A DNA stretch of 64,000 nucleotides. Source: Diabrotica undecimpunctata. Its lineage: Eukaryota; Arthropoda; Insecta; Coleoptera; Chrysomelidae. Below the pieces are notes generated by a model. That model worked only from the letters and a program-made list of their open reading frames with translations, made no database searches and was not told the origin of the DNA. Both the position numbers and the translations under genes were made by a program. This document shows positions 14,712 through 35,672 of this stretch, one piece after another; the stretch's first letter is position 1; each line of letters starts with the position of its first letter. The stretch is taken from NCBI RefSeq assembly GCF_040954645.1, contig NC_092806.1, positions 112,513,231 through 112,577,230 of the forward strand, in the 5' to 3' direction.

Positions 14712-14783
14712 TCCTTGGTAGTATAGTAGTCAGTATCCCCGCCTGTCATGCGGGAGACCGGGGTTCGATTCCCAGTCGGGGAG
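14712..14783 (+). tRNA. tRNA-Asp (anticodon GTC)
   Basis: A full cloverleaf can be drawn. The acceptor arm is TCCTTGG with TCGGGGA and discriminator G. The D arm is followed by anticodon stem CCCGC/GCGGG around loop CTGTCAT, with anticodon GTC. The TPsiC loop TTCGATT carries the B-box GGTTCGATTCC. There is no intron. A TTTTTT run at 14787-14792 is a normal RNA polymerase III terminator. One oddity is a G-A mismatch in the TPsiC stem (CGGGG against CCCAG), plus two G-T pairs in the acceptor stem, so it may be slightly weakened. It is the only clear host gene in the window. Confidence 0.93.
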
Positions 14784-29726: not shown

Positions 29727-30244
29727 AGATCCACCTTCAATCGGATGGTGGCCTTCTTCAAGAGTCACAACCTCTCTCTTGATACAAAAGTAAGAATGCT
29801 GCGATGCTACTTCTTCTCTGTCCTTTTTTATGGTGTTGAATCGTGAACCTTGAACGAAGATATGTGCAGAAAACTGGAAGCATTTGAGATGTGGCTATAT
29901 CGGAGAATGCTTAAGATCCCGTGGACTGACCGAGTCACAAATGAGGAGGTCCTCAGAAGAATAAGTAAGAATCGAGAAGTACTGACCACCATCAAAGCTC
30001 GAAAGTTACGGTTCTTCGGACATATTATGCGAAATGAATCCAGATATACTCTCCTTCACGCTATCCTACAAGGAAAAATATTTGGAAAACGAGGTCCAGG
30101 AAGAAGAAGAACATCTTGGTTAAAAAACCTCAGAATCTGGTTCAATACAACATCTGTGCAGCTTTTCCGCGCTGCTGCAGATAAGATAAAGATTGCCATG
30201 GTGATCGGCAACATGCATAACGGATAGGCACATCAAGAAGAAGA
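29727..30244 (+). mobile_element. 5'-truncated LINE inserted antisense, 11-bp TSD
   Basis: Bounded by ATTCCCTTTTT at 29716-29726 and 30245-30255. Encodes RMLRCYFFSVLFYGVES, a stop, TLNEDMCRKLEAFEMWLYRR, RFFGHIMRNESRYTLLHAIL, GKRGPGRRRTSWLKNLRIWF and KIAMVIGNMHNG, with a stop at 30225-30227 and an AAG tail at 30230-30244. Only the region after the reverse transcriptase is present. It is well preserved (one stop at 29847-29849), so it is younger than its host. Confidence 0.9.
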
Positions 30245-30978
30245 ATTCCCTTTTTCTATTTTGTGTCCAGTCATTTATACACTGTACGTTACATTTTCTT
30301 CTAATGCCTTCACTTCTCTTTCGATCTCTCAGCGTATTTCCTGTAAATCTTCTCAGTACTCTCATCTCTGCCGTTTGCAGTAACCTTTGCTTTGTGGCTA
30401 CGTCGGGTCTTGTTTCTGAGGCATATGTCGTTGTTGGTCTTGCACTGGCTTTATAAATTCTTGACTTCATTTCAGTGTTAATGTGTCTGTTCCGCCATAA
30501 AGTGTTATTAAGGCATCCTGCCAGTTTATTTGCTTTTTGTACTTGATCTCTTACTTCTTTGTAAAGGTCTCCATAGCTGGACAGAGTAATTTCCAGGTAT
30601 TTTATTTTCATTACTTGTTCAATACTGATGCCATCAATTTCTATTTTACAACTGGTTGGTTCTTTGCTAACAACTATTGTTTTAGTTTTCTGAAATGAAA
30701 TTGTCATATTAAATTCTTTTACTCTTATGTTAAATGTGTGGATCAGTCTTTGGAGACTATCTTCATCTTGGGCTATCAATTTTGCGTCGTCTGCATAACA
30801 GAGTATCTTTATTTTTTTGTATCATCTTTCTTTGTTAACGCTTTTAATGATTTCATCCATGATTAAATTGAAGAGCATTGGGCTCAATGAATCCCCTTGT
30901 CTTATTCCGTTGCCTATTTCTATAGGTTGTGTAAGTTGTCCATCTATTCTGACTTCTATTTTGTTGTTTTGGTAGATG

Positions 30979-31123
30979 TGGACAAATTCGAATATAATTA
31001 TAAATTCGAATTGTTTCTAAATTCCCTTTGTCCGATTCTTCTCCATCGACGATGATAAATTGACAGCTACTGAATGATTACACTCGAGTTGTTGTTTATG
31101 TAAAAATTTATAATATATTGCGT
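30979..31123 (-). repeat. Left (3') LTR, partial
   Basis: Matches 32605-32778 of the right LTR at roughly 85-90% by eye. It lacks about 30 bp present there (around 32691-32720), a stretch that includes a minus-strand AATAAA polyadenylation-type signal. The remaining U3 part is not recognisable, so this LTR is truncated or recombined. Confidence 0.75.
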
Positions 31124-31177: not shown

Positions 31178-32555
31178 TCAAATAAGTGTATTGCCCTCTG
31201 CATAGAACAAAATCTTTGACTTTTGAAAGCTAGTAAATATAATTTGAACCGAGGAAATGATTACAGTCCTCAATAAAATATTTGGCAATAGTTTGCAGGC
31301 ATTTTGGCTCTCTTGACATTCCGAAGATATCTGACTACATTGCACATAATGACAATCAACATAACAATGAATATAGTCACTAGTCCTATAGTGAAATGAG
31401 GAATCCACTGATGGTTGGCAATCGTTTTCCACGTGTGTTAGGACATGTCTTCTCTAACTGCTCTGCCTCAAGTACTATATTTAGCAACTCACCTCCCTGA
31501 ATGTCTATATTATGTCGGGGAATGTTGATCTGTTTTATTGTTGACTTCTGCATAAGCTCGTCAATGGGGCTGACGGGAATCTATAAGTAACTTCCAATTG
31601 CTGTTTGAAATCCATTACTGAATGTGAGCAATGTTATGTTCCGGGTCAGAGCAACGGATTTTGGTGACAGCTCTATAAACTCGTTTGATTTATCTTATGT
31701 TCAGATCGAGAACCATCGCACATTATAGCTAAATTTATAGCGTATGGTGGAATGATTAGCCATAGGTTCAGTGTGCTCATTTTCAGCCAACTGGCTTCCT
31801 TTATCATGTACTCGACTATATTGCAGGTGGTGTTGGGAGTTTTATCATATGCATTGAACATGCCAATTCTCCTTTGTTTAATTCTGCACACCTTTATTTA
31901 TCTTCATATGTCACTTCAAAATAGTGTAAATTATTATAATCTATCGCAAGTAGATTCATTGGGACTAACAACGAGCGAAAAACGCCACTTGTCGCCAATA
32001 ACGAAAGAGCTGTGGCTCTCAATAGGTTGTATCTAGTATTGTCAATTTTTAGGAAATAGCCAATAATGGCGATGTCTCTTTCTTCATTTTGTACAACCGT
32101 ATCTATTATTGGCTGCCTTATTATATTTACTATTTGTGGAAGGAACTTTGTAGCATTCAAGATAATTGACTCTATTTGGCCGGGTTTTATAATATCTATG
32201 AAGTGTCCATGATTCTTGTTTTCATATTCCATTGCACGGTCATAGACCGCTTCCATTTTCAGTCGTATGTACTCTTTTTCTAATGTGTCAGCTCTATATA
32301 TTTCCTTGATTCCTTTTATCAGTGCTTCTCGGAACCTATTTAAATGTCCATTTATTGTTTCTTCTGTAGAATTAATCGAAGCTACCATTTGTAACATCAT
32401 ATTCGTCTGATGTTTTGAATTTTTTATTATTTCCTTCTAATTTTCGTTCAAGGAATCGATGTCTCTATAAACTTCATCATTTACTCCAAATAATGATGTG
32501 AGGACTTTTCCTAGAAGTGCCCTTTTCGGCCTTCTTTTAACTTCCGAATCCAATG
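31178..32555 (-). pseudogene. env: Errantivirus-type env remnant (F-protein-like)
   Basis: Broken minus-strand frames (32400-31894 open for 168 codons; 31891-31673; 31432-31178) follow a basic RxKR-like cleavage motif (complement of about 32522-32536) and a Leu/Gly/Phe stretch like a fusion peptide. This is the order seen in Metaviridae/errantivirus envelope proteins related to baculovirus F. The surface-subunit half before the cleavage site is missing and several stops are present, so it cannot encode a working envelope. It abuts the tRNA-Tyr segment directly. Confidence 0.55.
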
Positions 32556-32565
32556 TTCGACTGTA

Positions 32566-32603
32566 TCCATAGGTCGCTGGTTCATATCCGGCTCGAAGGA
32601 CCA
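32566..32603 (+). other. 3' half of tRNA-Tyr in place of an 18-nt primer-binding site
   Basis: Reads as anticodon-stem 3' side TCCAT, variable loop AGGTC, TPsiC stem GCTGG/CCGGC around TTCATAT, acceptor 3' strand TCGAAGG, A and CCA. The last 18 nt (32586-32603) are a normal PBS complement. The match continues 20 nt further, to the anticodon loop; CTGTA just before (32561-32565) holds GTA, with positions 37-38 missing. The single departure from the expected sequence is T at 32585, exactly position 58, universally A (m1A) in tRNA. Confidence 0.8.
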
Positions 32604-32604
32604 A

Positions 32605-32869
32605 TGGACAAATTCGAATTTAATTATAAATTCGAATTGTTTCTAAATTCCCTTTGCCCGGTTCTTCTCGATCGACGATGATAAAATTGAAGTCGTGGAA
32701 AAAAATATAATTTTATTAACAGCTACTGAATGATTACACTCTAGTTGTTCTTGAGGTAAAAATTTATAATAGACTGCGATCGATATGTTTCACTATTAAA
32801 CACGGTGACATTCAGAAAATTAAGATTAATGTGGGATTACAAATTAATGGACTAATTTGTGATTAAACA
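32605..32869 (-). repeat. Right (5') LTR, 265 bp
   Basis: Starts 1 bp beyond the CCA of the tRNA segment and ends with the complement of TGTTTAATC at 32861-32869. The AGATG duplication follows. On the minus strand it contains TTAATAAAATTAT, a possible polyadenylation signal. Confidence 0.8.
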
Positions 32870-33710
32870 AGATGTTTTTGAGAGTTTTTATAATATTTAG
32901 GGAAACTTTTCTATTATACAGAAGATGGATTACATCTTTGAGTCTTACTTTGTCAAACGCTTTCTTTAGGTCAATCAGACACAGAAATCCTGGTCTATTA
33001 TACTCTAGTGATTTCTATTTCTCTGTAATTTGCTTTATAACGAATATTTCGTCTTTACACTATCTTCCACTTCGAAAACCCTGTTGTTCATCTGCTAAAC
33101 TTATCCTCTGATTTATTAGCTATTGTAAAATTTTAGTTGTAAGTTTTAGGGTAGTATTTAACAAGTTTATGTAGTTTTATGGCTCTTTTTATCTCCTTTT
33201 TTGAATAGTAGAATTAGTTCGCTCGTTCTCCATTCTTCCGGTATTTTATTGGGTTTTATAATTTTATTAATTAATGTTGTTAACTGTTCTGTCATTGCTG
33301 CTCCACAATATTTTACTAAATCTTGTTTTTACTGCACTTAATTTTGTTTCTTGAACGGTCTTTAATATATCTTTAATTCTCGTTCAGTTTTCCTCAGTAC
33401 TTTTATCTTTGCTTGATGTCTACTTTATTTTTTGTTCTAATACACTGGTAATTTCTTGTTGTACATTATCATTTGAATCTTTATTTGCCAATTTGCTTTA
33501 ATTCGCCCTAACTTATTTTATAATATTGTCTATTTTTCTCAAACTTCTTTTAAATTTTTGTTTATCCAGTCATTTCTTTCTTTTTCTTGTGGAGTTGCAT
33601 TGATCTCGCTTTTTCATCATTTTTCCTGTTTGGCTTTGATGGGTTCAACTATGTGATTCTGGTATGGTTTTTGTTACTCTTAATATTTGAAAATATTGGT
33701 AATACCAGTA

Positions 33711-34870: not shown

Positions 34871-34983
34871 TACTTCTGATATACCTATTTTTAGATTGAA
34901 AAATTTAAAAGTATATATTGCCTCGTTACGCCATTCCTGACTGATTTTACGTGAATCGATTTCGAAGATCTTTTTTATAAGCA

Positions 34984-35103
34984 GAAAGACGTTTGAGATT
35001 TAATTTCAATACAGGGCCACTGCCATCCACTTTAACATTTTTCGACATTTTTAGATATCCTCAGAATGCAGAAGCTCATTGAAATTAAATCTCAAACGTC
35101 TTT
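34984..35103. repeat. Inverted repeat, 28-bp arms
   Basis: AGAAAGACGTTTGAGATTTA near 34984 and its inverse complement near 35084-35103 flank a 60-70-bp spacer. The right arm is also the start of a longer direct repeat (35076-35330 and 35478-35672). Confidence 0.8.
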
Positions 35104-35672
35104 CTACTTTGTTTATATACTCATGTTTGGAGTATTAGAAACTAATTCACGAAGGATATTTGCCGTGGTGGACGACAGGTCGTGGAATACAAATTATAGG
35201 TTTTCCTTGTCGATAAATTCAACAATCTTTCTGCTTTATATATTGTAAAAAGCTCAGTAGACAAATATTTGAATTTTAGGTTCGCCAAGTAAAAAATCTT
35301 TGGATTTCTACTAATTCTGTTATTAGATGGCGTTGTAACGTCCGATATAATTAAATTATAATTATACTTTTATGACGAGAAGGATTTCCTTTTAATCTTG
35401 TGCTTCTACTTATGTGGCTCTGAGGAGATCAGAAGAAGGACGAAATACGTATAAGCGGATGGTAGTGGTCCTGCATTGGAATTAAATCTTAAACGTCTTT
35501 CTGCTTGGTTTATTTAGTCTGAGTATTAGAAACTAATTTACGAAGGATATTTGCTGTGGTAGATGACAGGTTTTGAAATGCAAAATATTGTAAAAAGCGC
35601 AGTAGACAAATATTTGAATTTTAGTTTCACCAAGTAAGAAATCTTAGGATTTCTACTAATTTTGTTTTTCCG
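35076..35672. repeat. Two direct copies of a roughly 200-250-bp dispersed repeat
   Basis: 35076-35330 and 35478-35672 share the segment from the CAAACGTCTTTCT arm through GAGTATTAGAAACTAATT, GAAGGATATTTGC, GTAGACAAATATTTGAATTT and GGATTTCTACTAATT. The second copy has a deletion of about 50 bp in the middle. It is non-coding; with the inverted arm at 34984 it suggests a foldback-type element, partly duplicated. Confidence 0.8.

Follow-up and report, generated by a model that had tools for sequence, protein, structure and literature searches.

The window analysed here, by which we mean the whole stretch of 64,000 nt, covers positions 112,513,231-112,577,230 of the forward strand of NC_092806.1 in the Diabrotica undecimpunctata assembly GCF_040954645.1. 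Its minus strand carries a retroelement which reads, in order, 5' LTR (32605-32869), a 1-nt spacer, an 18-nt primer-binding site (PBS; 32586-32603), a tRNA-derived tail (32559-32585), an env remnant (31275-32562, end approximate) and 3' LTR (to 30979). The element sits in the reverse-transcriptase ORF of a LINE on the same strand, upstream of the insertion at 32875-33000 and downstream at 30120-30973, where the RVT_1 match (E 8e-6) falls slightly below the Pfam cut-off. The sequence CATCT stands on both sides, at 32870-32874 next to the 5' LTR and identically at 30974-30978 on the 3' side, bearing out an initial sequence-only reading of a retroelement flanked by a target-site duplication, and in-silico excision of the element between them joins the flanks (LNIIKTLKNIYQNNKIEV) into an uninterrupted LINE reading frame. 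Elsewhere in the window there is a full tRNA-Asp(GTC)-like gene at 14712-14783 (ARAGORN, Rfam), and repeats, both inverted and direct, cluster at 34979-35669, with 74-nt arms that are 82% complementary and an 85-nt direct repeat whose copies are 92% alike.

Both LTRs appear abbreviated. The 5' LTR, of TG...CA form and 265 nt long, is without ~235 nt of U3 that are present in copies such as L003, with its 517-nt LTR. The portion of the 3' LTR alignable to it (30979-31122) has 10 differences over 144 sites plus indels of 29 and 1 nt, and by-eye comparison with L014 indicates that the start of its U3 and the env tail have seemingly been lost. We considered an origin of the 5' LTR by intermolecular transfer, suggested by the differing U3 of the two LTRs, and rejected it because the LTRs of other copies, ~480-520 nt long, contain the stretches unique to each window LTR (a comparison made partly by eye); the window copy thus seems to have lost different parts of its two LTRs.

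The env remnant runs through several frames and is missing its upstream portion, its joint with the tail falling at the codons SR(T)LD, a short way ahead of a furin-like RRPKR. A 180-aa env piece has a single protein match at E <=1e-3, an uncharacterised Diabrotica virgifera protein identical at 72/118 positions; the env frame aligns to the Diabrotica protein from SR(T/A)LD onward, with 32/41 residues aligned. The alignment of the D. virgifera segment MISRALDLEVKKGSKRGLLG to the window's GYSRTLDSEVKRRPKRALLG places the start of env homology at the AGT codon, and AGTC is also tRNA sequence. Among viral contigs, four pattern matches to env were obtained and none was confirmed as a relative. The window copy itself is without a Peptidase_A17 domain. 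Such a domain (PF05380; E 2.9e-6, above the Pfam cut-off) lies in a Pao-type pol ~540 nt past the PBS of L012, a copy with 83% LTR similarity to L003, and L013, like L012, runs into the Pao peptidase region ~540 nt on; L002 and L024 enter an aspartic-protease-like frame ~240 nt on, matching PF13650 below the Pfam cut-off (E 2.9e-4, L002). Judging from the frames of these four copies, the family is probably BEL/Pao-like. BEL/Pao elements make target duplications of 4-6 bp, and the window copy has their combination of TG...CA LTRs and a short target duplication, CATCT.

What distinguishes the window copy is the sequence between LTR and env. The PBS pairs without mismatch with positions 59-76 of tRNA-Tyr, CCA included, and the complementarity continues beyond it, so that the plus strand from 32559 to 32603 reads GACTGTA--TCCATAGGTCGCTGGTTCATATCCGGCTCGAAGGACCA, a copy of 45 nt of tRNA-Tyr from CCA to position 30. 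Against the eight tRNA-Tyr genes read from this genome, it departs only by T at 32585, which is position 58 (A rather than T in element sense), and by two bases absent at 37-38 within the over-extension from 58 to 30. The coordinates and identity first read from the sequence, a tRNA-Tyr-derived PBS with an extension at the LTR, hold up, as do the T at position 58, where all eight genes have A, and the loss of 37-38, although a gap at 36-37 fits the alignment equally well; the proposed extended tRNA copy also stands, but its length was underestimated at 38 nt. The last four copied bases, AGTC, are common to tRNA and env. We dropped a reading in which the tail ends at 38 and ACAGTC belongs to env, since in L020, which shares the 2-nt deletion, tRNA sequence resumes after it and goes on to 27. 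A chance match is ruled out because the 45 nt stand in register right after the LTR and include a CCA that seven of the genes lack. Nor is the stretch a tRNA gene or pseudogene: it has CCA, is missing the 5' half and adjoins the LTR directly, whereas the sequence-only reading would have given way to a pseudogene standing independently of an LTR. Rfam returned two matches for the tail, both at chance level; the PBS and tail patterns had no match in viral contigs or in the genome contigs searched, and the tRNA-Tyr strings none in paper text.

The tRNA-Tyr genes themselves were collected with an exact pattern for positions 45-73 in which 57-59 were left open. Of its 30 genome matches, 22 were read (19 fetched, plus L001, L020 and L023), and eight of these proved to be tRNA-Tyr genes; each has A58 and an intron between G37 and A38. 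For the eight genes read, this disposes of the possibility, recognised from the start, that the genes of this species themselves have T at 58. None of the seven genes read to their end has CCA; the stretch with the eighth (L050) is cut short of that point. With A58, an intron at 37/38 and no CCA in the genes, the copies derive from processed RNA. In total 16 of the 30 matches were counted as genes, namely the eight read and eight unread ones in two C8 clusters whose read neighbours are genes.

Further copies were gathered in two samples. The query for sample 1, window positions 32541-32700, had at least 44 matches, with 40 of 949 candidates scored; 17 of the 44 were left unfetched, 16 of them beginning at query base 62-65 and so covering LTR only, and one beginning at base 53, inside the L023 stretch. 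Twenty-seven loci (L001-L027) resulted, of which 24 have a PBS-like 18-mer and 22 are distinct, the window copy included; L015, L025 and L026 were left out as having no such 18-mer within four mismatches, L013 and L024 as belonging to the same events as L012 and L002, respectively. Among these 22, 18 extend past position 58 in register from the CCA beside U5. As the query holds a tail with a changed base 58, sample 1 gives no rate; the share of copies with tails is biased in it, and to a slight degree also the mix of bases. Sample 2 consists of the 14 non-gene matches of the 45-73 pattern, which is blind to bases 57-59 and to everything below 45, and it shares L001, L020 and L023 with sample 1. 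The extended PBS had been taken for a singular fossil; it is instead recurrent, and the further copies with an extended PBS and a changed base 58 that this reading proposed to look for turned up in both samples. L061, L064, L065 and L066 have the same tail signature with other sequence beside CCA, which suggests that tRNA-Tyr priming with over-extension is not confined to a single LTR family of this genome.

Two members of sample 2 have unusual surroundings. At L063, a tRNA-Tyr 3' half (38-76, T58) lies between AAATGTTTTGTATAAA on both sides, and a second GGTCGCTGGTT stands to the right; the second GGTCGCTGGTT favours tandem duplication over a LINE-type insertion with duplication of 15 nt, which we also considered, and the flanks were not used. 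L052 (with L067) has palindromic arms on both sides of the tRNA copy. Both were kept in sample 2; without them, position 58 is changed in 9/12 copies and 6/12 end at 38.

Position 58 is the one base at which the tails depart systematically from the tRNA. The element-sense base there, in the 18 tails of sample 1, is A in 12, C in two, the unchanged T in three (L011, L014, L017) and deleted in one. When the 17 gap-free tails are tabulated (L012 being excluded for a one-base deletion that shifts its alignment), position 58 is changed in 14 and the other 34 positions together in 30/570, with at most three changes at any site (Fisher p=1.2e-14). In sample 2, selected blind to this base, 10/14 copies are changed at 58 (tRNA sense T in seven, G in three) and L052, L056, L058 and L059 are not, compared with 0/14 at 57 and 1/14 at 59 (Fisher 6.6e-6); in the worst case, if all eight unread pattern matches were copies with A58, the fraction would be 10/22. 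Pooling both samples, 22/29 over-extended copies are altered at 58, one of them by deletion. The misreads are T or G in tRNA sense, never C, matching the misread signature low in C that an excerpt of PMC4787781 gives for m1A followed by A. L002 and L024 stem from a single event and yet have different bases at 58, and therefore later mutation also acts there. According to passages of PMC13191261, the primer tRNAs of retroviruses and of some LTR elements carry m1A58, which is held to set the 18-nt PBS of HIV-1, and loss of the A58 methylase permits over-extension in that virus.

The tails also tend to end at one place. By our own reading of the alignments, eight tails of sample 1 end at 38 (L004, L007, L009, L014, L019, L022, L023, L027), two at 39 (L005, L011), one at 40 (L006) and one at 46 (L017), while L001, L002, L012, L018 and L020 continue past 37 and L003 is ambiguous between 38 and past 37; the copies ending at or before 59 are L008 and L010, at 59, and L016 and L021, within the PBS. 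For L004 an inserted A at 37 was dropped, the following sequence resembling LTR R, and for L007 and L023 we read the automatic ends as chance gapped extensions, so that all three were taken to end at 38. In sample 2, the end is likewise at 38 in eight copies (L023, L052, L056, L061-L064, L066), and otherwise at 27 (L020, L058), 30 (L001), ~44 (L059), ~42 (L060) and ~41 (L065); eight ends of 14 at a single position has p=1.3e-7 if all 19 positions are given equal chance. Those passing 37 are mostly altered at the lesion: two nucleotides are lost in L001 and L020, A replaces C in L002 and L018, L012 is less clear and L058 is unchanged. The expectation of a skip or stall at 37 is thus right about trouble at this position, with the skip being rarer than a stop that leaves the tail end at 38. 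Human or bovine tRNA-Tyr carries m1G37, as stated in part of PMC7200024. HIV-1 strong-stop synthesis in vitro gives a minor product stopping at modified A37, according to an excerpt of PMC13191261. The tails ending at 27 stop beside position 26. We take insect tRNA-Tyr to carry both m1G37 and m2,2G26.

A stop at m1G37 is not the only way to arrive at 38. The template could have been the 3' exon of tRNA-Tyr (38-76, set free by splicing endonuclease cleavage) or the 3' half of a tRNA, position 38 then being a run-off end; the intron of the genes lies exactly between 37 and 38, as pre-tRNA introns do according to a passage of PMC12313893, and makes 38 the natural 3' exon end. Yet L001, L002, L018, L020 and L058 hold intron-free 5' exon sequence across 37/38, and mature tRNA must therefore have served at least there. 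Moreover, two tails end at 27, where there is no exon boundary, and the changes at 37 would be left unexplained. We therefore regard such a template as a doubtful general source of the tails.

The junctions beyond the tails differ from copy to copy. Seven copies reach env, at window-element positions 310, 352, 382, 450, 729, 951 and 1188; as L016, the one at 450, stops within the PBS and is therefore tailless, these amount to six env-joined tails. The tail of L004 adjoins LTR sequence, and pol-like, LTR or host DNA stands at the junction of other tails. Six joints can be compared with a homologous copy that reveals the partner (L003, L005, L014, L016, L020, L027); 0-4 bases are shared there. 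L009 (=L034) consists of LTR, PBS and a 39-nt tail, from LTR start 422 to tail end ~940, in a LINE ORF whose joined flanks read through; neither an LTR within the following 6 kb nor an evident target duplication was seen, and the copy looks like inserted plus-strand strong-stop DNA. Among 20 larger stretches (6.9 kb each, one of them 5.7 kb), a 3' LTR lies downstream in only three (L005, L020, L023), and a target duplication was demonstrable for no copy except the window's. With so few 3' LTRs and no duplications, clean integration as a complete element is established for the window copy only, and the partner of several tails may be host DNA, or an element that was truncated at a later time. 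In L002 (=L028) and L024, LTR sequence stands inverted beside PBS and tail; this arrangement, with the palindromic one of L052, may point to fold-back self-priming.

This diversity bears on whether the long PBS might simply be inherited, an ancestor having fixed an extension to 38 with A opposite 58 beside which deletions arose later. Many ends do coincide, 12/18 tails have A opposite 58, no normal full-length copy was identified among the copies read, and lentiviruses and spumaviruses have a primer over-extension sequence, as described in a portion of PMC13191261. However, base 58 is also C, T or deleted, the ends range from 46 to ~21, L008 and L010 have 18 nt only, and L061 and L064-L066 show the same changes with other sequence beside CCA. 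The post-tail sequence differs among the distinct copies read, and each deletion would need to begin exactly at the tail end. We judge inheritance of a long PBS to be improbable. Still less credible is a deletion made after integration, through recombination of a provirus already in place with a tRNA that was reverse-transcribed on its own; such a model has been published for tRNA-Gly in HIV-infected clones, as an excerpt of PMC12220202 describes, but the over-extended tRNA copies of sample 1 begin at CCA in register with the PBS beside the LTR, and the window copy retains its 5-bp duplication and the LINE frame. Ordinary decay unrelated to modifications, in the form of a random substitution at 58 and a small deletion at 37-38 after insertion, would be consistent with the 10/144 differing LTR sites, which predict 1-2 substitutions in the tail, but is scarcely conceivable when 58 is changed in 14/17 and 10/14 tails and its neighbours are not.

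The window copy is thus very probably a defunct, deleted copy of a BEL/Pao-like element with env, which arose when strong-stop synthesis read through m1A58, stalled at 37 and left an end that was mis-joined. From the sequences, base changes, tail ends, junction diversity and state of the tRNA genes, we infer an order of events, joining during reverse transcription, and the presence of both m1A58 and m1G37 in the tRNA-Tyr of this insect. The element would prime with tRNA-Tyr, and reverse transcriptase making plus-strand strong-stop DNA would pass m1A58, usually placing dA and sometimes dC opposite it. On reaching G37 it would mostly stop, with 38 as the last copied base, and would sometimes pass with a change or a 2-nt deletion, in two copies to end at 27, beside position 26. 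The over-long 3' end would be unfit for the normal 18-nt second strand transfer and would be joined elsewhere, with 0-4 shared bases where this can be judged, the partner being internal element DNA or LTR, and for one copy or more a stretch of the chromosome. For the window copy, an end at position 30 would have been joined to env, with gag, pol and upstream env lost, and the product integrated with a 5-bp duplication. The core of the sequence-only reading, read-through of m1A58 with misincorporation, trouble at 37 and a join to env, now finds good support in the diverse junctions, the hot spot at 58 and the ends at 38.

A broader proposition can be built on this read-through of m1A58, to which we would give about an even chance: over-extension at m1A58 may be a regular failure of reverse transcription in this element group and a main source of its deleted, non-autonomous copies and of one-LTR insertions such as L009, with the genome archiving the modification state of the tRNA (m1A58, m1G37, m2,2G26) as misreads and ends.

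The recurrence, the hot spot at 58 and the main end at 38 are new relative to the sequence-only reading. Within the open-licence literature, none of the matches listed, as excerpted, describes a genome in which primer copies are repeatedly over-extended and changed at modified positions. A genomic record that preserves many events of read-through, misreading and arrest, linked to the formation of deletions, is rare, and what follows when m1A58 is passed has otherwise come to light mostly through studies of HIV-1. Such a record makes it possible to infer former tRNA modification from DNA, and to test the origin of deleted retroelement derivatives. It lies just beyond the PBS, unlike the PBS mutations of endogenous retroviruses, for which a review (PMC7472051, in excerpt) found no match to tRNA modifications.

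Compared with known systems, the window copy shares with env-bearing BEL/Pao elements (Belpaoviridae) the LTR, the 5-bp duplication and, in a copy with the same LTR and PBS, the Pao peptidase domain, and differs in having lost gag and pol. The primer over-extension sequence of lentiviruses and spumaviruses is likewise primer tRNA complement beyond the 18-nt PBS, but it is a consensus that lets transfer work, whereas here length, base 58 and continuation vary by copy. Reverse-transcribed tRNA joined to viral DNA is also found in a circular murine leukaemia virus DNA that carries tRNA-Gly (Colicelli and Goff, cited in PMC12220202) and in HIV proviral deletions; those are single cases with a non-primer tRNA, the HIV one involving a deletion, and in the present copies the tRNA is the element's own primer, in register and with position-specific changes. 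The copies described here have the properties of over-extended strong-stop DNA, starting at CCA, continuing in register past 58, and changing or stopping at positions modified in such tRNAs (the hot spot at 58, the ends at 38 and 27). In copying past m1A58 and stopping at a modified position 37, they resemble the over-extended plus-strand strong-stop DNA of HIV-1 ('P5', with its stop at ms2t6A37). As excerpted from PMC13191261, P5 is a minor in vitro product and not an active template; its counterpart here is genomic DNA, present in many copies of an insect BEL/Pao-like element, copied from tRNA-Tyr and mis-joined.
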